DNA of 64,000 nt, taken from an uncultured cyanobacterium. GTDB lineage: Bacteria; Cyanobacteriota; Cyanobacteriia; Cyanobacteriales; FACHB-T130. Location: assembly GCA_936920195.1 (NCBI GenBank), contig CAKZHE010000251.1:1-64000 (forward strand), written 5' to 3'. A program made the translations under genes and the position numbers. Shown in pieces: positions 31,429 through 41,532 of this stretch. Position 1 is the stretch's first letter, and each line of letters starts with the position of its first letter. The notes beneath the pieces are model-generated. The model was not told where the DNA came from. It made no database searches and was given only the letters and a program-made list of their open reading frames with translations.

Positions 31429-34400
31429 GTGGAGGCAATGAATCAATTGATCTGGCTAGATCTATTTTTGACAGTTGACATCATCAGACAAAATTGGTGG
31501 TGGCAGCTATCTGTAGTCGGAGAAGGAATCGTAATTGCCATTTTGAGCGGAGCTTTGTATATTGTTGGACAACAAGCTGCTCAAAAACTGCGAACAGCCC
31601 CCACCCAAAGAAAATTGCCCGAACTACCGACCACCTCAGAATTTTCAAACCTGCTAGTTGATAGCAGCCCAGATGGGATTTTTGCCTTTGATACCAATTT
31701 CCGATACATCCTCTGGAACCCCAGCATGGAAAGAATGTTCGGGATTGGCAAAGCCGAAATTCTCCAGCAATGCGCTTTTGATGTCTTTCCTTGGTTAAAA
31801 GAAACAGGCGAAGATCGGTATTTTTTGGCAGCACTGGCAGGGAAAAGCAGCGTAGCGCCCACCCGCGCTCAGTGCTTTGTGAGAGATCGACCCTTCAATC
31901 GGCAAGAATGTATAGAGTGCCATTATTCCCCCCTCAAGAACGATCGTGGCGAGATTATTGGCGGGATGGCAGTGGTGCGGGAAACTGGACAGCGCCAGCA
32001 AGCAGAAGAGCAACGCATCCAGCTGATGCGCCAACAAATATCTCGCATCCAAGCCGAGGCTACCCAATGGCGGTTTGAATTTCTGGCTCAGGCTAGTACC
32101 CTTCTTGCCGCCTCCCTAGATTATGAAACCACCCTAACTAATGTGGCGAAACTGATTGTGCCGGAACTAGCAGACTGGTGTCTGATTGATTTGCTTGCCG
32201 AAGATATGATTGAGCGAGTTGCCGTCGCTCACATTGATCCCAACCAAGTAGAATTAGCCCATCAAAGACCGCGCTACTATTTACTAGATCCCAATGCTAC
32301 CTACGGTGTATGCCGGGTATTGCGAACTGGACAATCAGAACTGTACGCCCATATCGTGGAGGAAGGAATTGTAGAAACTGCCATTGGCCTAACCGCCGCC
32401 CAGAGTTTCAGCCTCAATCAGTCCCAGAATTTTGATCCCAAACAACTGCAAATCTTACCAGAAATCGGTTGCAAATCTGCCATGATTGTTCCCCTACTGG
32501 CACGGGGACAAATTTTAGGAGCCATTACCTTAGTGGCATCTGATTCCGAACGCCACTATGAATCATCAGATCTGGCTTTAGCTGAAGACTTGGCTAACCG
32601 GGCTGCTCTAGCCGTAGATAATGCCAGAATTCACCGCGAAGCCCAGCGAGCGCGACAAGCTGCCGAACGCGCTGCCAACCGCACCGCCCTCTTGCAAAGG
32701 ATTACTGCGGCTCTTTCAGAATCTTTAACCATTGCTCAAGTTGCCAAAGTAGTTGTTACCCAAGGTACAGTTTCCCTAGGGGCGGCGGCGGGGGTAATTA
32801 CCCTGCTCAGTCACAGCGATGATATTCTCCAGATTGTGCAAGCGGTGGGCTATCCCCAAGATATTATTGATGGTTGGCAGCAATTCCACCTGGATACCCC
32901 GGCTCCCTTATCAGATACCGTCAGAACTGGCGAAGCGATTTTTTTGGAAAACCAAACAATTTTTCTAGCTGCCTATCCGGATTTGCGGGAGATAATTGCT
33001 CAAACACCCTATCAATCTTGGGCGAGCATTCCCCTGATTATTGAAGGTTATCCAGTGGGCGGGATGGGGTTAAGCTTTGAGCAACCCCGACATTTTAGCG
33101 ATGATGACCGCAATTTTATGCGCTCTTTAGCCCAGCAATGCGCTCAGGCGATGGAACGAGCCTACCTCTACGAAGCGGAACAAAGCGCTCGCACGGCTAG
33201 CGAAGCGGCTAGAAGTGCTGCCGAAGCAGCCAACCGGATGAAAGATGAATTTCTGGCGATTGTCTCTCACGAATTACGGACTCCCCTGAATTCAATTCTA
33301 GGTTGGGCGCAACTGCTGCGATCGCGCAAATTCGATCCTGCCAAAACCGCCGCTGCCATTGAAACCATTGAACGCAATGCCCGCTCCCAAAATCAGTTAA
33401 TTGAAGATATCCTAGATGTTTCTCGAATGCTGCGGGGCAAACTAAAATTAGAAATTCGCTCTGTTGATTTAGTGGCTCTGATTGAGGCTGTTATTGAATC
33501 CGGACGACCTGCCGCCACTGCCAAAGCCATTCAAGTCGAGTTTGTGGTTGAGATTAAAATTGGGGCGATTTCTGCGGATTGGAATCGCCTGCAACAGGTG
33601 GTGTGGAATCTGCTTTCCAACGCGATTAAATTCACGCCTGCGGGGGGGCGAGTGGAAATCCGACTCTCGGCAGCCGAAAAGTTTCTGGATGAAGACGACA
33701 GTCAAAGTACCGCCACCGCTTGCGTCCAAATCCAAGTCACTGACACAGGACAAGGAATTAGTGCCGAGTTTTTGCCCTACGTTTTTGAACAGTTCCGCCA
33801 AGCTGACAGCGGTACTACCAGAGCCTACGGGGGATTGGGATTGGGATTAGCCATTGCTCGCTACCTAGTGGAGTTGCATGGCGGCAAAGTTTGGGCAGAA
33901 AGTCCGGGGAAAGGACTAGGTGCTAGGTTTACTGTCCAATTACCCTTATTATCTGGCAGTCCCGCCCTGATCAAACTGGCGCATAATACTCCAGAAGCAT
34001 TACCCCTAGATTTTTCGACACCGTTACCTTTGGCAACAACGGCAGCACGACTGGATGGATTGCAAGTGCTAGTAGTTGATGATGAGGCAGATACGCGGGA
34101 GTTTCTGAGAGCAGTGCTGGAAGAGTATGGCGCAAAAGTGACCGCAGTAGCATCGGCAGCAGAAGCTTTATTAACCTTGGCAAGCGATCGCCCCGATGCC
34201 ATTGTCAGCGATATTGGGATGCCAGAGCAAGATGGCTACTCCCTGATCCGGCAAATACGGGATTGGGAAACCCAACAAGGATGGCAAATTCCTGCCTTGG
34301 CGCTGACAGCCTATGCCCGGGATGAAGATTGTCATCAGGCACTGTTAGCTGGTTTTCAAAAGCACGTTACTAAGCCAGTGGAACCTGCCTATTTGGTGGA

Positions 34401-34440
34401 AGTTTTAGCCCATCTTACCTCCAGCCTAACTCCCCATTAA
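31429..34440 (+). CDS. Hybrid histidine kinase: TM-PAS-GAF-GAF-HisKA-HATPase-REC
   Basis: 1003 residues if the GTG at 31429 is used; an ATG three codons later is the alternative, but GGAGG is too close to it. A membrane helix (about 24-48) is followed by a PAS domain (72-190), two GAF domains (about 215-400 and 425-590), HisKA with phospho-His614 (FLAIVSHELRTPLNS), the ATPase (N-box VVWNLLSNAIKF, DTGQGIS, GGLGLGLAI) and a C-terminal receiver (VVDDEAD; phospho-Asp928 in IVSDIGMP; lysine in TKPVEP). No bilin-binding cysteine is evident, so the GAF ligands are unknown. Its 3' end overlaps the next gene by 15 bases, tail to tail. Confidence 0.92.
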   Translation: MEAMNQLIWLDLFLTVDIIRQNWWWQLSVVGEGIVIAILSGALYIVGQQAAQKLRTAPTQRKLPELPTTSEFSNLLVDSSPDGIFAFDTNFRYILWNPSMERMFGIGKAEILQQCAFDVFPWLKETGEDRYFLAALAGKSSVAPTRAQCFVRDRPFNRQECIECHYSPLKNDRGEIIGGMAVVRETGQRQQAEEQRIQLMRQQISRIQAEATQWRFEFLAQASTLLAASLDYETTLTNVAKLIVPELADWCLIDLLAEDMIERVAVAHIDPNQVELAHQRPRYYLLDPNATYGVCRVLRTGQSELYAHIVEEGIVETAIGLTAAQSFSLNQSQNFDPKQLQILPEIGCKSAMIVPLLARGQILGAITLVASDSERHYESSDLALAEDLANRAALAVDNARIHREAQRARQAAERAANRTALLQRITAALSESLTIAQVAKVVVTQGTVSLGAAAGVITLLSHSDDILQIVQAVGYPQDIIDGWQQFHLDTPAPLSDTVRTGEAIFLENQTIFLAAYPDLREIIAQTPYQSWASIPLIIEGYPVGGMGLSFEQPRHFSDDDRNFMRSLAQQCAQAMERAYLYEAEQSARTASEAARSAAEAANRMKDEFLAIVSHELRTPLNSILGWAQLLRSRKFDPAKTAAAIETIERNARSQNQLIEDILDVSRMLRGKLKLEIRSVDLVALIEAVIESGRPAATAKAIQVEFVVEIKIGAISADWNRLQQVVWNLLSNAIKFTPAGGRVEIRLSAAEKFLDEDDSQSTATACVQIQVTDTGQGISAEFLPYVFEQFRQADSGTTRAYGGLGLGLAIARYLVELHGGKVWAESPGKGLGARFTVQLPLLSGSPALIKLAHNTPEALPLDFSTPLPLATTAARLDGLQVLVVDDEADTREFLRAVLEEYGAKVTAVASAAEALLTLASDRPDAIVSDIGMPEQDGYSLIRQIRDWETQQGWQIPALALTAYARDEDCHQALLAGFQKHVTKPVEPAYLVEVLAHLTSSLTPH

Positions 34441-34827
34441 ATCAGTCAAATCTATCAATTTAAGTTCCGGTAATTTCTTTTTCCCCAACCGGAACAATTC
34501 AATAAAATTAAACGGCTTGCCGATACATCCGCTTGCCCCTAAGTTCAGAAGTTCTTGATGGATATTATCAGTAATATTCTCACCGATAAAAATCACCGGA
34601 ATATTCGCTGTTTTGCTTTGGGAGCGGAAGGCATATAAAATCCCGTGGCCTTCCGCCAAAGATATATCTAAATCAAAAAAAATCAATTCTGGTTGTAGGG
34701 CGATCGCCTGCTGCAACCCAGTGACACTATCTTGGGTATCAACAATTGCAAAATTCGCTAGTTCTAGGAACATCGTCAGAGATGCCCTTAAGTCACTGTC
34801 TTGTTCAATTAATAAAGCTTTCTTCAT
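34426..34827 (-). CDS. Single-domain response regulator (receiver only)
   Basis: About 133 residues from ATG 34827 (an upstream ATG at 34863 adds 12 codons). MKKALLIEQDSDLRASL is the receiver start, with phospho-Asp52 in IFFDLDI, the threonine/serine region in IPVIFIGEN, and GKPFN with the conserved lysine. The tail (LKLIDLTDLMGS) has no output domain. It converges on the hybrid kinase gene and could be its downstream receiver, though opposite orientation means separate transcription. Confidence 0.85.
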   Translation of the reverse strand: MKKALLIEQDSDLRASLTMFLELANFAIVDTQDSVTGLQQAIALQPELIFFDLDISLAEGHGILYAFRSQSKTANIPVIFIGENITDNIHQELLNLGASGCIGKPFNFIELFRLGKKKLPELKLIDLTDLMGS

Positions 34828-35179
34828 CGAATTCAATGCAAAGCTAAGGCAATGTCTTAACATTCATGCCCCGTTATTGATGGTATTTTTCTACTCTAAT
34901 TCAAAAAAAATTGGAATGGTTTGAGGCTTCTATAAAGCCCTTAAGTATGAATGCGATCGCCTAATAAAATTGATCTTAAAATTAATTGAAAATACTGACA
35001 AATTTGCCCAAATAGCCATTAACCAATATAGAATTTACGTACTGGACAAACTGACCATGATATGAGTAGGCGAAATGGGGAGTTCTAGGCTACTTCCCCG
35101 CCACTCCCCTAGTAGGCTGTCAAGGTGGTTTGCCGACTAGCCGCATTGCAACTAAAAGTTTAAAAAGAGAGATAAAAAT
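34828..35179. other. Gap with one GC-rich hairpin
   Basis: No gene. GGGGAGT (35077-35083) can pair with ACTCCCC (35103-35109) around a loop that contains TTCCCC. It lies about 70 bases upstream of the small orphan antitoxin cassette and could be a leader structure. Nothing else stands out. Confidence 0.5.
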
Positions 35180-35543: not shown

Positions 35544-36662
35544 CTAATGTTTTTTCAGGTAGATGACAAGGGCAATAATGGCTCCAGCTAATAAAATCCC
35601 CCCTACAACTGCTAGAGCAATCTTCCAGGCGCTGTAAGGGCGATCGCCTTGGACTTCCCCGGTGCGAGCATTAATTAATACTTGATATCGTTTATTTTGA
35701 TATCGATAGGTTGCCATCCATACCGGGAGAAAAATATGCTTAAAAGTTATGGAATTGTAACTTGTGGAAATATTACTTACTCGCTGTTCATCTCCACCAA
35801 TATCGCGACAGACATCGGAGTGAATGACATTTTGCATGACAGTTTTAGCAGTTTCAAAACCCTCTTTCAAAGTCACTTGCGCTCTTTGGGCTTGAAATCC
35901 CGCTAAATAAGAAGGTTCGTAAGTTACCAAAGATTGTTTTAAATGCCAAGGCTCTAAAGCATCTAACCGCTGGCGATTAACTAACTTGGTGGCAGCAATC
36001 AAAACATCATCAAAAAAACGATCGACTCTGCCAGTTACCCAATACCAATTGGTGTAACGTACCTCGCGGGTTTTTGTTTCCGATTCCCCCTGTTCGTTTC
36101 TTTCTTCGTAGGTTTCGGTCACATAATAATATTCCCCCCGTTCCCCAGAATAGTTGCTGGTGGTATAGGCATCGTAAGTCCAAAAGGGTAAATAAACTCC
36201 TTCAATTTTTTCTTGTTGGGCTAGTTGCTGCAACTCATTGGGAGCAAACCATAAACCTTTTAACCACTGACGAATATTTTCTCTGGCAACTTTAGATCCA
36301 ACCACAAATGGTACAATGGCTTCGGGAGCAATGGTAGGTTGAGCAGTTTTGGGTTGGGCAACAATGGCAGCAGCACAAAAGGGACAATTCCCGGCGACGT
36401 GAGAAGGTTCAAAAGTTACTTTTGCGCCGCAGTTGTTACAACCCACTTCTAGGGCGGTGGCAGATAAAACAGCTAACTTATTTTGATTGGTTTCGAGATA
36501 TTCTTGATAGGAGCGCTCTTGAACTGTTTCTAAACTTGGGGCGATCGCTTCTTCATAACCGCAGTAGGGACACTTCAATTTACTAACTTTGGGATTGAAT
36601 TCCAAGTTAGCGCCACACTGAGTACAGGGATATTGTTGTGCGGATGATGGTGATATTGTCAT
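35544..36662 (-). CDS. Zinc-ribbon membrane protein (YdjG-like)
   Basis: 372 residues. Two TFIIB-type zinc ribbons at the N-terminus (CTQCGANLEF...CPYCGYEE; CNNCGAKVTF...CPFCAAAI), a large soluble region with YLPFWTYDAYTTSNYSGERG, and one C-terminal membrane helix. The architecture resembles Bacillus YdjG, which acts with an SPFH protein (YdjI) and a PspA-like protein in membrane stress. The SPFH gene is directly upstream on the same strand, which supports a joint role. No PspA is in the window. Confidence 0.8.
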   Translation of the reverse strand: MTISPSSAQQYPCTQCGANLEFNPKVSKLKCPYCGYEEAIAPSLETVQERSYQEYLETNQNKLAVLSATALEVGCNNCGAKVTFEPSHVAGNCPFCAAAIVAQPKTAQPTIAPEAIVPFVVGSKVARENIRQWLKGLWFAPNELQQLAQQEKIEGVYLPFWTYDAYTTSNYSGERGEYYYVTETYEERNEQGESETKTREVRYTNWYWVTGRVDRFFDDVLIAATKLVNRQRLDALEPWHLKQSLVTYEPSYLAGFQAQRAQVTLKEGFETAKTVMQNVIHSDVCRDIGGDEQRVSNISTSYNSITFKHIFLPVWMATYRYQNKRYQVLINARTGEVQGDRPYSAWKIALAVVGGILLAGAIIALVIYLKKH

Positions 36663-36681
36663 AGCAATATTGACTCTTCCA

Positions 36682-36734
36682 GTTTGTAGTTGGGCTTTAG
36701 CCCTAATCCGGGATGCTCAAGCCCAACTACGAAC
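36682..36734. terminator. Long hairpin repeat between SPFH and zinc-ribbon genes
   Basis: GTTTGTAGTTGGGCTT (36682-36697) and AAGCCCAACTACGAAC (36719-36734) pair with one mismatch. The inner part shares the GGGCTTTAGCCC core of its relatives at 11883 and 59321. It could end or attenuate transcription from the SPFH gene. Confidence 0.5.
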
Positions 36735-36743
36735 TTTTTCTAA

Positions 36744-38006
36744 TTAAGGTAGCAAAGAGGCTAATTCTGGTAATTCCGAGGCTTTTTTCCAGCCATTTTG
36801 TCCCGCTTTCCACAACAAGGTATCGGGAACAATCCCTTGTTGGGCTAATTGACTTGGACTAAAAGGCCCTAAACGCTGATTATTTTGGTAAATAAACCAC
36901 TCCGTTTGCACTGGTGGCGGTGGGGGAGCCACTGGCGGCGGCGGCGGAACTGCGGCAAAGGCTGAGGTCAATTCCGACAATTCCGAGGCTTGTTTCCAAC
37001 CATCCAATCCCGTGCGCCAAACATAACTTTGGGGAGTAATTCCCTGTTGGATTAATTGATTGATGGTAAATGGTCCTAACCGCTGTCCGTTGTCAGAAAT
37101 ATACCATTGGGTTTGTCCCAGAGGTGGTGGGGGAGCCGCCGGGGGATTTTGCTGTTGTTGAAATCCGGCTACTAGCTGCTGTCCCATCGCCAATCCTACC
37201 CCCAAATCTAGGGCGGGATTGCCCCCACCAGGATTTTTAGAAGAGTTTTCAATGGCATTAGCCGCTTGATATTGGGCATATTGCTGCATATTTCCCAATA
37301 GTCCAATGGAAGCTCTTTTATCCAGAGCGGCTTCCACTTCTGGCGGCAAGGAGATATTTTCAATTAGCAGTTGGGTGACTTGCAATCCCAACCCCTGCAT
37401 ATCAGATTGAATTCCAGCACAAATTTGGTTGCTCATTTCCCGGTATTGGGAGGCAAAATCCAGCAGGGGAATGTTACCTTTGCCAATCCAACTAGCAACG
37501 GAGGTGACAATATTGTTGCGGAGGTGGTCGCTAATTTCGTCTACTTGGAATAGTCCATCGGTGCTAACTATTTCCTTGAGGAAAACTGCTGGGTCTGCCA
37601 CTCTAATACTATACGTGCCAAAGGCGCGAAGCCGCACTGGACCTAATTCCGGATCGCGAATGGTGATGGGGTTGGCGGTTCCCCATTTCAAGTTAGTAAA
37701 GACGCGGGTGCTAAAGAAGTAAACTTCGGCTTTGAAAGGGGAGTTGAAACCGTACTTCCAGCCTTGGAGAGTGCTGAGGATGGGTAAGTTGCGGGTATAG
37801 AGTTCGTGCATCCCTGGATCGAAGATATCCGCAACGTGACCTTCATTGACAAATATAGCTACTTGACCGGGACGGACGGTTAATTTCGCACCCTGTTTAA
37901 TTTCGTTGTTGTGGCGCTCGAAACGGTAAACAATTGTGTCGTTGCTGGAATCCAGCCATTCAATAATGTCAATGAATTGACCGCGAATGCTCTCAAAGAG
38001 ACCCAT
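36744..38006 (-). CDS. SPFH-domain protein with two GYF_2 domains (YdjI-like)
   Basis: 420 residues. Residues 1-260 form an SPFH/virion-core-like domain (MGLFESIRGQFIDIIEW..., VRPGQVAIFVNEGHVAD, DLRNNIVTSVASWI-type helix, LPPEVEAALDKRASIGLLG). After a glycine/proline linker come two GYF_2 repeats (QWYISDNGQRLGPFTINQL, EWFIYQNNQRLGPFSPSQL), each with a following WK-ASEL segment, likely protein-binding. SPFH proteins form membrane microdomain scaffolds. It is the first gene of the pair with the zinc-ribbon gene. Confidence 0.87.
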   Translation of the reverse strand: MGLFESIRGQFIDIIEWLDSSNDTIVYRFERHNNEIKQGAKLTVRPGQVAIFVNEGHVADIFDPGMHELYTRNLPILSTLQGWKYGFNSPFKAEVYFFSTRVFTNLKWGTANPITIRDPELGPVRLRAFGTYSIRVADPAVFLKEIVSTDGLFQVDEISDHLRNNIVTSVASWIGKGNIPLLDFASQYREMSNQICAGIQSDMQGLGLQVTQLLIENISLPPEVEAALDKRASIGLLGNMQQYAQYQAANAIENSSKNPGGGNPALDLGVGLAMGQQLVAGFQQQQNPPAAPPPPLGQTQWYISDNGQRLGPFTINQLIQQGITPQSYVWRTGLDGWKQASELSELTSAFAAVPPPPPVAPPPPPVQTEWFIYQNNQRLGPFSPSQLAQQGIVPDTLLWKAGQNGWKKASELPELASLLP

Positions 38007-38040
38007 GGGCTGACCTCCAGCTTAGTAAAAATCATGATTT

Positions 38041-38105
38041 TGTAGGGGTAGCGCCCCCGTGCCTACCCCAATCTGGCGGGGCAACCACGGGGGGATTGCC
38101 CCTAC
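38041..38105. repeat. GGGGCAACCACGGGGGGATTGCCCC-type hairpin core
   Basis: A first arm TAGGGGTAGCGCCCCCGTG... and a second GGGGCAACC...GGATTGCCCC hairpin (38079-38103). The second is the core found inside the miniature elements at 8086 and 15985, here without their ACTTACG ends. Confidence 0.6.
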
Positions 38106-38187
38106 ATAGAATGAACAGCCTTGCTCTCCCGAAGGGAGTTGAAACGGAGTACAATTATCAGCAAAACTCAACATTTAAAATTATAAT

Positions 38188-40287
38188 ATGGCGATCGCTC
38201 CCCCAGGAGTATTTTTCAACAATGCTTTGGGATATTTCCTCTCTGCGCTCGATGCCACGATGGTATTACAGAGCGATGTAGAGGTTTGGCAGTGGTTCGC
38301 ACTACTCATGGGAGCGATCGCACTTTTCTTTTGGCTTCAGCAGCATGGTTCTTCCCCTCCCAAAACTGCCTGGGATAGCAATGTGCATCTGCGCGATCGC
38401 GCTTTAGCTGCTAGTTACAATGGCATTGTGATTTCTGATGCCCGACAGCCTGACTTACCTGTAATCTATGTTAATCCAGCTTTTGAAAGGATTACAGGTT
38501 ATTCCGCTGCGGAAGTTTTAGGTAAAAATTGTCGATTTCTCAAAGGCTCCGACTGCGATCAGCCCGAATTAACTCAATTACGGGCGGCGTTGCAAGCTGG
38601 CAAACCTTGTATTGTGATTTTGCGGAACTATCGTCGGGATGGTACGCTATTTTGGAACGAACTCAGCATTTCGCCGATTTATGACAATGCGGGAACCCTA
38701 ACTCACTTCATCGGCATTCAAACCGATGTAACGGAGCGGAAGCAATTTGAAGCTGCTTTGCAACAAGCTAGGGATCAGATGAGAGCAATCTTAGACGCAG
38801 TGCCAGGGGTAGTATCTTGGATTAACTCCGATTTGCGTTACATCGAGGTTAACCGTCACTTAGCCAGAAATTTTAATCTGCCGCCGGAAGATTTCGTCAA
38901 TCAACAAATTGGTTTTATTAAACATCGATCTAGCGCTCAATTTGCCGAATTAATGGCACAGTTTTTTGCTAGTTCCATGACTGAGATTTCTCAAGAAACT
39001 GTGGTTGAAGTTGATAATCAGGAGCGTAATTATCTGTTAGTAGCGCAAAAATACGATCGCGATCGCGCTGCTTTTTCGGTGGGGATTGATATTACCGAGC
39101 GCAAGCAAGCTGAAGAAGCTCTCCGGGCAACTACTTCTAGACTGACAGCGCTGATGGCGAATTTACAAGCCAGTGTCTTAGTCAAAGATGAGTGGCAGCG
39201 GGTAGTCCTAATTAATCAGACTTTCTGCGATACCTTTGGCATTGCCACTCCGCCATCAGAATTAATTGGGACTGATTTTTCCGAATTTTCCGAACAACAA
39301 AAATGCCGATTTGCCGAGCCAGAGAAATTTGTCCAACGAATGAAAGAAATCTTAGCAAATCGCCAAGTTGTGACTAATGAAGAATTGCTGCTGGCAGACG
39401 GAAGAACCTTTGAGCGGGATTATGTGCCAATTTTTGTGGCAGAAACCTACTGCGGTCACTTGTGGATGTATCGGGATATCACCCAACGCAAGCAAGCTGA
39501 AAAAGCCCTATTAGTTACTCAAGAAGAATTGCGGCAAGCCTTAGCCAAGGAGAAAGAATTAAATGAATTAAAATCTCGATTTATTTCCATGACTTCTCAC
39601 GAATTTCGTACCCCCTTGAGTACGATTCTGTCTTCGGCAGAATTGCTGGAACATTATCGGCACAAGTGGACGCAAGAAAAGCAACTCTCCCACATTCAAC
39701 GAATTCAAATCGCCGTCAATCACATGGTACATTTGCTGAATGATGTGCTGATTGCGGGTAAAGCCGAGGCGGGAAAATTAGAGGCGAGCAGAACTAAATT
39801 GAACTTGGAGAAGTTCTGCCGGGAGTTAGTAGAAGAAATTCAACTCAGCAGCCAAAATCACCACGCGATCGCCTTTTCTTGTCAAGGCGACTGCACTGAT
39901 TGCTACTTAGACGAGAAATTGTTACGCCAAATTCTCAGTAACTTACTCTCCAATGCCCTGAAGTATTCTCCCCTCGGCAGTGCTGTCACCTTTCAGCTTG
40001 CTTGTCAGGAGTTAACAGTTGATAATAATTGCAGTCAGGGCGAACAAGTGGTACTTTTCCAGATTCAAGATCAGGGGATTGGTATTCCTGTCGGCGAACG
40101 GGAATTATTATTTGATTCTTTCTACCGAGCCACCAATGCTAGTCATATTCCCGGTACTGGGTTAGGATTAACCATCGTCAAACGATGCGTGGAGGCTCAT
40201 GGGGGTCAAATTAGCGTCAATAGTACCGCAGTAGGGACAACATTTACTGTCACCCTACCGATGGCAGTTGAGGACAGAAAAATTTAA
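38188..40287 (+). CDS. LOV-domain sensor histidine kinase (blue-light receptor candidate)
   Basis: 699 residues. A membrane helix (about 34-51), then a LOV domain (70-185): GKNCRFLKG carries the photoactive cysteine (Cys115), and flavin-contact residues Asn147 (LRNYRRDG), Asn157 (FWNEL) and Gln178 (FIGIQ) are in place. Two further PAS domains (about 190-310 and 315-440) lead to HisKA with His471 (FISMTSHEFRTPL) and an ATPase domain (ILSNLLSNALKYSP, DQGIGIP, GTGLGL). It should bind flavin and react to blue light. The REC-EAL gene starts 21 bases later, so this is an operon and the likely phosphotransfer partner. Confidence 0.9.
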   Translation: MAIAPPGVFFNNALGYFLSALDATMVLQSDVEVWQWFALLMGAIALFFWLQQHGSSPPKTAWDSNVHLRDRALAASYNGIVISDARQPDLPVIYVNPAFERITGYSAAEVLGKNCRFLKGSDCDQPELTQLRAALQAGKPCIVILRNYRRDGTLFWNELSISPIYDNAGTLTHFIGIQTDVTERKQFEAALQQARDQMRAILDAVPGVVSWINSDLRYIEVNRHLARNFNLPPEDFVNQQIGFIKHRSSAQFAELMAQFFASSMTEISQETVVEVDNQERNYLLVAQKYDRDRAAFSVGIDITERKQAEEALRATTSRLTALMANLQASVLVKDEWQRVVLINQTFCDTFGIATPPSELIGTDFSEFSEQQKCRFAEPEKFVQRMKEILANRQVVTNEELLLADGRTFERDYVPIFVAETYCGHLWMYRDITQRKQAEKALLVTQEELRQALAKEKELNELKSRFISMTSHEFRTPLSTILSSAELLEHYRHKWTQEKQLSHIQRIQIAVNHMVHLLNDVLIAGKAEAGKLEASRTKLNLEKFCRELVEEIQLSSQNHHAIAFSCQGDCTDCYLDEKLLRQILSNLLSNALKYSPLGSAVTFQLACQELTVDNNCSQGEQVVLFQIQDQGIGIPVGERELLFDSFYRATNASHIPGTGLGLTIVKRCVEAHGGQISVNSTAVGTTFTVTLPMAVEDRKI

Positions 40288-40308
40288 TCAATAGCTGAAA
40301 TAGCTGAT

Positions 40309-41532
40309 ATGGCAAAGATCTTAGTGATTGAAAATGAGATGCTAGTGCGAGAAAACCTGCTAGAACTCCTAGAAGCAGAGTCATTTGTGGCGATTCCCGC
40401 TGCCAATGGAAGAGAAGGGGTAGAGATGGCGATCGCCCAGCAACCGGATTTGATTCTTTGTGATATTATGATGCCAGAGTTGGATGGTTATCAAGTTTTA
40501 AAAGCCTTGCGCCAACATCCCCTAACGACAACTATTCCCTTCATTTTTTTAACTGCTAAGGTAGCCAAAGCTGATTTCCGACAAGGGATGGAATTAGGCG
40601 CAGATGACTATCTTACCAAACCATTTACTAGAGAGGAATTGCTGGGAGCGATCGCCAGTCGGCTAGCCAAACAAAATTCGATGCGATCGCGGGGAATGAA
40701 GGAAATTTCCCCCGCCGAACTCTCCCTAGAAACTAGCCTCCGGGAAGCTTTAGAACGGGATGAATTGCAACTTCACTACCAACCCCAAGTCCATCTAACC
40801 AGCGGGGAAATTATTGGCGTTGAAGCCTTAGTCCGCTGGCAGCATCCCGAAAAAGGTCTGGTTTCCCCAGTGGAATTTATTCCCCTTGCCGAAGCCACAG
40901 GTTTAATTATTCCGATTGGCGAATGGGTGTTGCGAACTGCCTGCCAACAAGCGAAAGTTTGGCACTCGGCTGGATTTACCGACTTGCGAGTATCAGTTAA
41001 TTTGTCTAGCAGTCAATTTGCCCAACCCCAACTTAGTCAAAGAATTATTGAAATTTTAAAGAGTACGGGACTAAATCCCAATAACCTAGAATTAGAAATT
41101 ACTGAAAGCCTGTTAGTCAAAGATATTGCCGGGGCGATCGCCATCTTCAGCGAATTACAATCCTGGGGGATTCACATTGCCATTGATGATTTTGGTACAG
41201 GTTATTCTTCTTTAAACTATTTGAAACAATTCCCCCTCAACAATCTCAAAATTGACCGCTGTTTTATCCGCAATATTAATGGCGATCCTGCCAACATTGC
41301 CATTACCACCGCCGTGATTCAAATGGCGCACAATCTTAATTTAGAAGTCATTGCGGAAGGCGTGGAAACTGAAGCCGAATTACTATTTTTATCCCAACAC
41401 GGCTGCGATGCCATTCAGGGTTATTTCTTCAGCCGCCCATTACCAGTATCGGAATTTGAAGAGTTGTTATTTTCGGGCAAGCGCTTACCTCTGCAAATTT
41501 GTGAATGTTTTGGTTCGCCGTTCAAAATTTAA
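40309..41532 (+). CDS. Response regulator with EAL domain (c-di-GMP phosphodiesterase)
   Basis: 407 residues. The receiver (1-125) has phospho-Asp52 in LILCDIMMPELDG and the lysine in LTKPF. The EAL domain (about 150-395) keeps its catalytic set: EALVRW (Glu172), NLSSSQF, ELEITES, IDDFGTGYSS, LKIDRCFI, IAEGVET and QGYFFSRP. It should hydrolyse cyclic di-GMP when phosphorylated. It is co-transcribed with the LOV kinase upstream, so blue light probably sets c-di-GMP level and thus motility or aggregation. Confidence 0.93.
   Translation: MAKILVIENEMLVRENLLELLEAESFVAIPAANGREGVEMAIAQQPDLILCDIMMPELDGYQVLKALRQHPLTTTIPFIFLTAKVAKADFRQGMELGADDYLTKPFTREELLGAIASRLAKQNSMRSRGMKEISPAELSLETSLREALERDELQLHYQPQVHLTSGEIIGVEALVRWQHPEKGLVSPVEFIPLAEATGLIIPIGEWVLRTACQQAKVWHSAGFTDLRVSVNLSSSQFAQPQLSQRIIEILKSTGLNPNNLELEITESLLVKDIAGAIAIFSELQSWGIHIAIDDFGTGYSSLNYLKQFPLNNLKIDRCFIRNINGDPANIAITTAVIQMAHNLNLEVIAEGVETEAELLFLSQHGCDAIQGYFFSRPLPVSEFEELLFSGKRLPLQICECFGSPFKI

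Follow-up and report, generated by a model that had tools for sequence, protein, structure and literature searches.

Locus and surroundings

What does the locus at 38188-41532 sense, and on what does it act? The earlier note on this DNA described a LOV histidine kinase and a REC-EAL protein in one operon and proposed that the pair converts blue light to c-di-GMP loss by phosphorelay. We examined both genes, their relatives in other cyanobacteria, and their surroundings in the window, which is the whole 64-kb stretch of DNA analysed here. The surroundings include a gene for a PAS-GAF-GAF-HK-REC hybrid kinase (31429-34440, + strand), the 3' end of which overlaps a convergent single receiver gene (34426-34863, - strand) by 15 nt. 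Positions 35544-38006 (- strand) hold the gene for an SPFH protein with two GYF_2 domains; adjoining it is one for a protein of 372 aa that has paired CxxC motifs and matches no Pfam family. The SPFH gene diverges from the kinase gene, and an imperfect inverted repeat, gtaggggtagcgcccccgtgcctacccc ... ggggcaaccacggggggattgcccctaca, can be seen by eye in the interval separating the two, at 38040-38110. The sequence GCGATCGC occurs 101 times within the 64 kb, which, together with the nearest named match of REC-EAL (below), points to a cyanobacterial source. A promoter scan gave no signal above chance level.

Domain architecture of the kinase

The kinase gene (38188..40287; this and all other features of the pair lie on the + strand) encodes a 699-aa sensor histidine kinase for which the open reading frame, Pfam and alignment give the order TM(?)-LOV-PAS-PAS-HisKA-HATPase. 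On re-reading, its coordinates, the GKNCRFLKG motif with Cys115, and Asn147, Asn157 and Gln178 all proved to be as first reported. Pfam matches place PAS_9 at residues 79-183 (1.3e-36), corresponding to the LOV domain (38422..38736), HisKA at 462-529 and HATPase_c at 575-693. The kinase core (39571..40266) has the acceptor histidine, H471, together with the N box (N585-N589) and the G boxes (D628-G632 and G656-G660). Two PAS domains, absent from the earlier note, lie between the LOV domain and this core. The first of them (the second PAS domain of the protein; Pfam, residues about 190-311, 38755..39120) is 64% identical to the post-LOV PAS domain of the relative L290, and the other (residues about 312-445, 39121..39522) is assigned from Pfam and relatives. 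These domain assignments are not in doubt. Also new is a possible single transmembrane segment at about residues 31-50 (38281..38340), for which hydropathy is borderline (a maximum Kyte-Doolittle value of 1.57 for the best 19-residue stretch); comparison of this region with the N-termini of relatives found no similarity. Profile searches, which had been suggested as a check on the LOV domain, gave a divided answer: the PAS_9 match stands, whereas the kinase falls below the cut-offs of the LOV-specific families, scoring 136 against 450 bits for NF052306 (blue-light-activated histidine kinase) and 157.6 against 250 bits for NF052652 (YtvA family), with the LOV part alone matched in each case.

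The signaling helix (D430-H471, 41 residues, 39475..39600) was defined by its spacing in comparison with 23 relatives. Counting from the D-I/V-S/T motif Asp in the final PAS domain to the acceptor His gives 34 residues for every one of the 23, against 41 for the window kinase, whose linker is thus exactly one heptad longer. Light responses in YF1 recur every seven linker residues (PMC6798134), and by this rule the insertion should preserve coupling because the register is retained. The heptad spacing is in line with selection for a working signaling helix, but carries no information on the sign of the response to light.

The LOV domain and its predicted flavin pocket

The best PDB sequence matches to residues ~57-200 are all LOV proteins (8a3u, 7r5n, YtvA 2pr5/4gcz, phototropin and Brucella LOV-HK), which places LOV identity far beyond chance. 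The LOV part matches 7r5n at 4e-41, and engineered LOV-FixL chains reach about 1e-49, a score to which the kinase part contributes. In addition to a PAS fold like that of known LOV proteins, the domain has the adduct cysteine in N-C-R-F-L and the Asn, Asn and Gln flavin contacts. From established LOV structures we take C115 to be the adduct cysteine, R116 and R132 to be the FMN-phosphate arginines, and N147, N157 and Q178 to contact the flavin. Flavin binding and photochemistry are predicted for this domain on the basis of these residues.

The residue after NCRFL is commonly Gln in LOV domains, without being strictly defining, and in the window it is replaced by Lys119. Among about 60 distinct LOV domains from relatives, only that of the window has Lys here. 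Moreover, a DNA pattern for G-x-N-C-R-F-L-K gave 3 matches in 390 genomes of the class; the two outside the window were rejected as LOV domains on inspection, leaving the window as the sole NCRFLK LOV. The shorter NCRFL pattern was matched in 180 genomes of the same 390-genome sample, with some matches due to chance. A role for Lys119 in tuning the photocycle had been suggested and is unsupported: the residue is unusual, yet in known LOV structures its position is in contact with the ribityl/phosphate tail of FMN, far from the reactive C4a. Because the position touches this tail, Lys119 is likelier to affect flavin affinity or cofactor choice than the photocycle.

Variation of the sensor in related cassettes

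The photoactive cysteine is not constant among relatives. In seven cassettes of one family (f6; L120, L121, L123, L125, L126, L128 and L131), Phe occupies the Cys position of a LOV-like domain that is 50-62% identical to the window LOV, and in the tree these domains form a single clade nested among Cys-containing LOVs. They were considered as direct sisters of the window LOV and rejected, since they form their own clade (100/99) with the window LOV outside it. Alignment and tree also reveal separate changes of Cys to Ser or Asp in L265, L266, L273, L283 and L286. The close relatives L265, L266 and L270 (genomes G471, G498 and G458) carry the same gene with Ser, Asp or Cys at the photoactive position.

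Natural cysteine-less LOVs exist and can signal via flavin reduction (PMC4682037). The flavin domain of the window kinase, or its two other PAS domains, might then respond to redox state or another cue, so that REC-EAL would be under a flavin redox sensor and light would be secondary; the extra PAS domains and the presence of the same cassette in the seven relatives with Cys to Phe domains favor such a reading. The window, however, retains all of the canonical photoactive residues, unlike those seven relatives, and the nearest full-length relative (in genome G472) also retains NCRFLQ; we regard a primary redox input as rather unlikely and blue light as the better candidate for the signal.

Sensors other than LOV are also found in related cassettes, including an ethylene-receptor N-terminal domain (PF25487, 1.8e-39) in L114 and CBS or multi-PAS/GAF domains elsewhere. 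These other sensors on the same output suggest that light need not be the sole input. In L114 (G001:C54:45300-52000), a REC-EAL protein 63% identical to that of the window is encoded downstream of the PF25487 kinase, which retains the Cys and His of FCGTGH, and this pair could possibly link ethylene to c-di-GMP.

The REC-EAL regulator

The second gene (40309..41532) encodes a 407-aa REC-EAL response regulator, as judged from its open reading frame, Pfam and alignment. The receiver domain (Response_reg, residues 4-115; 40318..40653) and the EAL domain (residues 143-377, 2.7e-80; 40735..41439) together account for its Pfam matches. The EAL domain has its catalytic and metal residues at all nine positions checked: E172, N231, E263, D293, D294, K314, E353 and Q370 are invariant in the 30 aligned sequences, and E350 is kept in 28 of the 30. 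Both the full catalytic set and the start of this gene 21 nt downstream of the kinase gene agree with the original description, and the protein is predicted to be an active phosphodiesterase. A search of genome contigs with the REC-EAL alignment gave mainly unrelated EAL proteins from other phyla, since the patterns used for scanning lay within generic motifs; the nearest named match was to a Microcoleaceae cyanobacterium.

The receiver has the Asp acceptor, D52, together with T82, Y101 and K104. Its acidic pair, by which receivers bind the Mg needed for phosphorylation, reads E8-N9 (N9 codon AAT) instead of E/D-D, a substitution that the earlier note did not mention. We take the Asn9 position to be the Mg-coordinating equivalent of CheY D13. 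Asp occupies this position in 113 of 115 distinct related receivers, and Asn occurs in only 1 of the 114 others, i.e. the cyanobacterial L298 (IENE). Asn9 could weaken phosphorylation of the receiver and calls for caution over the phosphorelay. If the receiver were phosphorylated poorly or not at all, REC-EAL would be a constitutive or partner-regulated phosphodiesterase, and the near-constant Asp of an Mg-binding pair argues for this. Nevertheless, D52, T82, Y101, K104, E8 and E10 are intact, the L298 receiver has the same IENE, and both the pairing and the heptad-spaced kinase appear to be maintained; we consider a non-responsive receiver distinctly unlikely, and a receiver that takes part in phosphotransfer remains our preferred reading.

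Pairing of kinase and regulator

The two genes are co-directional (+) and separated by 21 nt. Relatives of REC-EAL were drawn from the 390 genomes of the class and from family members, and the DNA upstream of each was read. In 13 of 26 relatives, the gene immediately upstream of REC-EAL encodes a kinase of the same family, and co-directional adjacency is conserved in these as well as in G472. Moreover, kinase-core and receiver distances are correlated across 18 neighboring pairs (r = 0.94, reached by none of 5000 permutations, with shared ancestry uncontrolled). The search for full-length relatives of the kinase, in 196 genomes of the order, yielded one that extends from LOV to HATPase (G472; 56% identity over 629 residues). 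This kinase region lies inside a 1517-aa protein, has the same LOV-PAS-PAS-HK order and keeps GRNCRFLQ, and it is followed after 54 nt by a REC-GGDEF-EAL protein with a degenerate GGDEF motif (SDREF). At least two families of the order thus have a LOV-PAS-PAS-kinase paired with REC-(GGDEF)-EAL; in the window pair, the long N-terminal part and the GGDEF domain of G472 are missing.

That the genes are mere neighbors, the kinase serving another regulator and REC-EAL another kinase, might be supposed from the many kinases and regulators in the genome and from the related LOV kinases L146, L147 and L290, which precede REC-HK proteins and not REC-EAL, but is highly improbable given the short intergenic spacing, the kinase/REC-EAL order in 13 relatives, the correlated divergence and the orthologous pair in G472. 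The proposal that one operon encodes a LOV histidine kinase together with its cognate REC-EAL protein is well supported, with the domains, the G472 pair, the correlated distances and the heptad spacing all in agreement, and phosphotransfer from kinase to REC-EAL can be predicted from these features. In related cyanobacteria the same kind of gene pair bears other sensors, and the version described here is compact.

Larger related clusters

Several genomes of the order have a larger cluster, in which a multi-PAS LOV protein of 1450-2330 aa is followed by a separate REC-HK protein. The kinase cores of these REC-HK proteins are mostly 54-60% identical to that of the window (41% in L298), and many of the clusters also carry REC-GGDEF-EAL and further receiver proteins. 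Across L290-L299, clusters of giant multi-PAS LOV, REC-HK, REC and often REC-GGDEF-EAL proteins are seen in several families. The C-terminus of the giant LOV protein is HisKA_2 in both examples given Pfam analysis. L290 and L291 share the LOV-PAS-PAS order of the window, with identities of 69-71, 61-64 and 64%, respectively. From this shared order and the existence of larger related clusters, the window pair may derive from their phosphorelay by shortening, although the kinase tree does not separate a nearest sister of the window kinase. As a tentative and somewhat doubtful extension, the pair may represent a kinase/REC-EAL cassette that is widespread in cyanobacteria and in which acquiring or losing a single Cys (Phe, Ser or Asp in relatives) has turned the LOV sensor from light to redox or back. 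The window would then hold a photoactive form, cut down to two genes from a LOV multi-kinase cluster of far greater size, with Asn9 altering the strength of coupling between light and c-di-GMP.

Proposed mechanism

We consider that the two genes probably form a blue-light two-component system in which the LOV kinase acts on the co-transcribed REC-EAL protein, so that light could either lower or raise c-di-GMP. The LOV domain would bind FMN and, on exposure to blue light, form a cysteinyl adduct at Cys115; the signal would then run through the two PAS domains and the coiled-coil signaling helix to the HisKA/HATPase core, shifting its kinase/phosphatase balance. Phosphoryl groups would be exchanged between His471 and Asp52 of REC-EAL, the phosphodiesterase activity of which, and hence local c-di-GMP, would track the light signal. 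LOV kinases may be either light-activated or light-repressed. The idea that blue light leads to c-di-GMP loss by phosphorelay therefore holds as regards the cognate pair, whereas loss as the direction is not established, because LOV kinases go either way and sequence does not give the effect of phosphorylation on the EAL domain.

Relation to known systems

The window pair is a new combination of known parts and not a new type of system. In Erythrobacter flavus, the LOV-1477 kinase signals blue light to DGC-2902 and, as in the window, a LOV histidine kinase acts on a separate receiver-bearing c-di-GMP enzyme (PMC12172448). That output, however, is a diguanylate cyclase, i.e. synthesis, whereas the window has an EAL phosphodiesterase, adjacent genes and two further PAS domains in the kinase. 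Synechococcus elongatus SL2 (LOV-GGDEF-EAL), a blue-light phosphodiesterase active in vitro, likewise places an EAL phosphodiesterase under a cyanobacterial LOV domain (PMC8846402), but does so in one polypeptide without histidine kinase or receiver, in contrast to the two proteins of the window. At least two further single-chain LOV and EAL proteins are encoded in the same genome as the window pair (G000:C61:52909-55932 and G000:C148:132-1793), the latter reading NCRIL, not NCRFL. YF1, Brucella LOV-HK and Caulobacter LovK also couple a LOV sensor to a histidine kinase by a coiled coil; the window kinase differs in the two PAS domains between LOV and kinase, in its HisKA type and in its REC-EAL output. 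The REC-EAL protein resembles PvrR-type regulators along its whole length (NF052596, 235.6 bits, under the family cut-off of 580 bits) and differs in being cyanobacterial and in having a LOV-kinase partner. Anabaena CdgK-CdgS similarly joins a cyanobacterial histidine kinase to a receiver-carrying c-di-GMP enzyme (PMC13001216), although the enzyme there, CdgS, is a diguanylate cyclase, and PMC13001216 does not describe CdgK as a LOV protein; the window pair differs in both respects. We found no description of a LOV histidine kinase with a REC-EAL partner in the open literature, which is weak evidence because subscription journals were mostly outside its scope.

Links between receptors and enzymes via histidine kinases have been named as a gap in c-di-GMP signaling (review PMC8846402). 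If a LOV kinase controls a separate c-di-GMP phosphodiesterase, the known route from LOV kinase to cyclase would have its counterpart on the degradation side. The compact pair, of 699 and 407 aa, is a tractable light-controlled phosphodiesterase system, and light and redox sensing can be compared in nature between cassettes that have the Cys and those that lack it.
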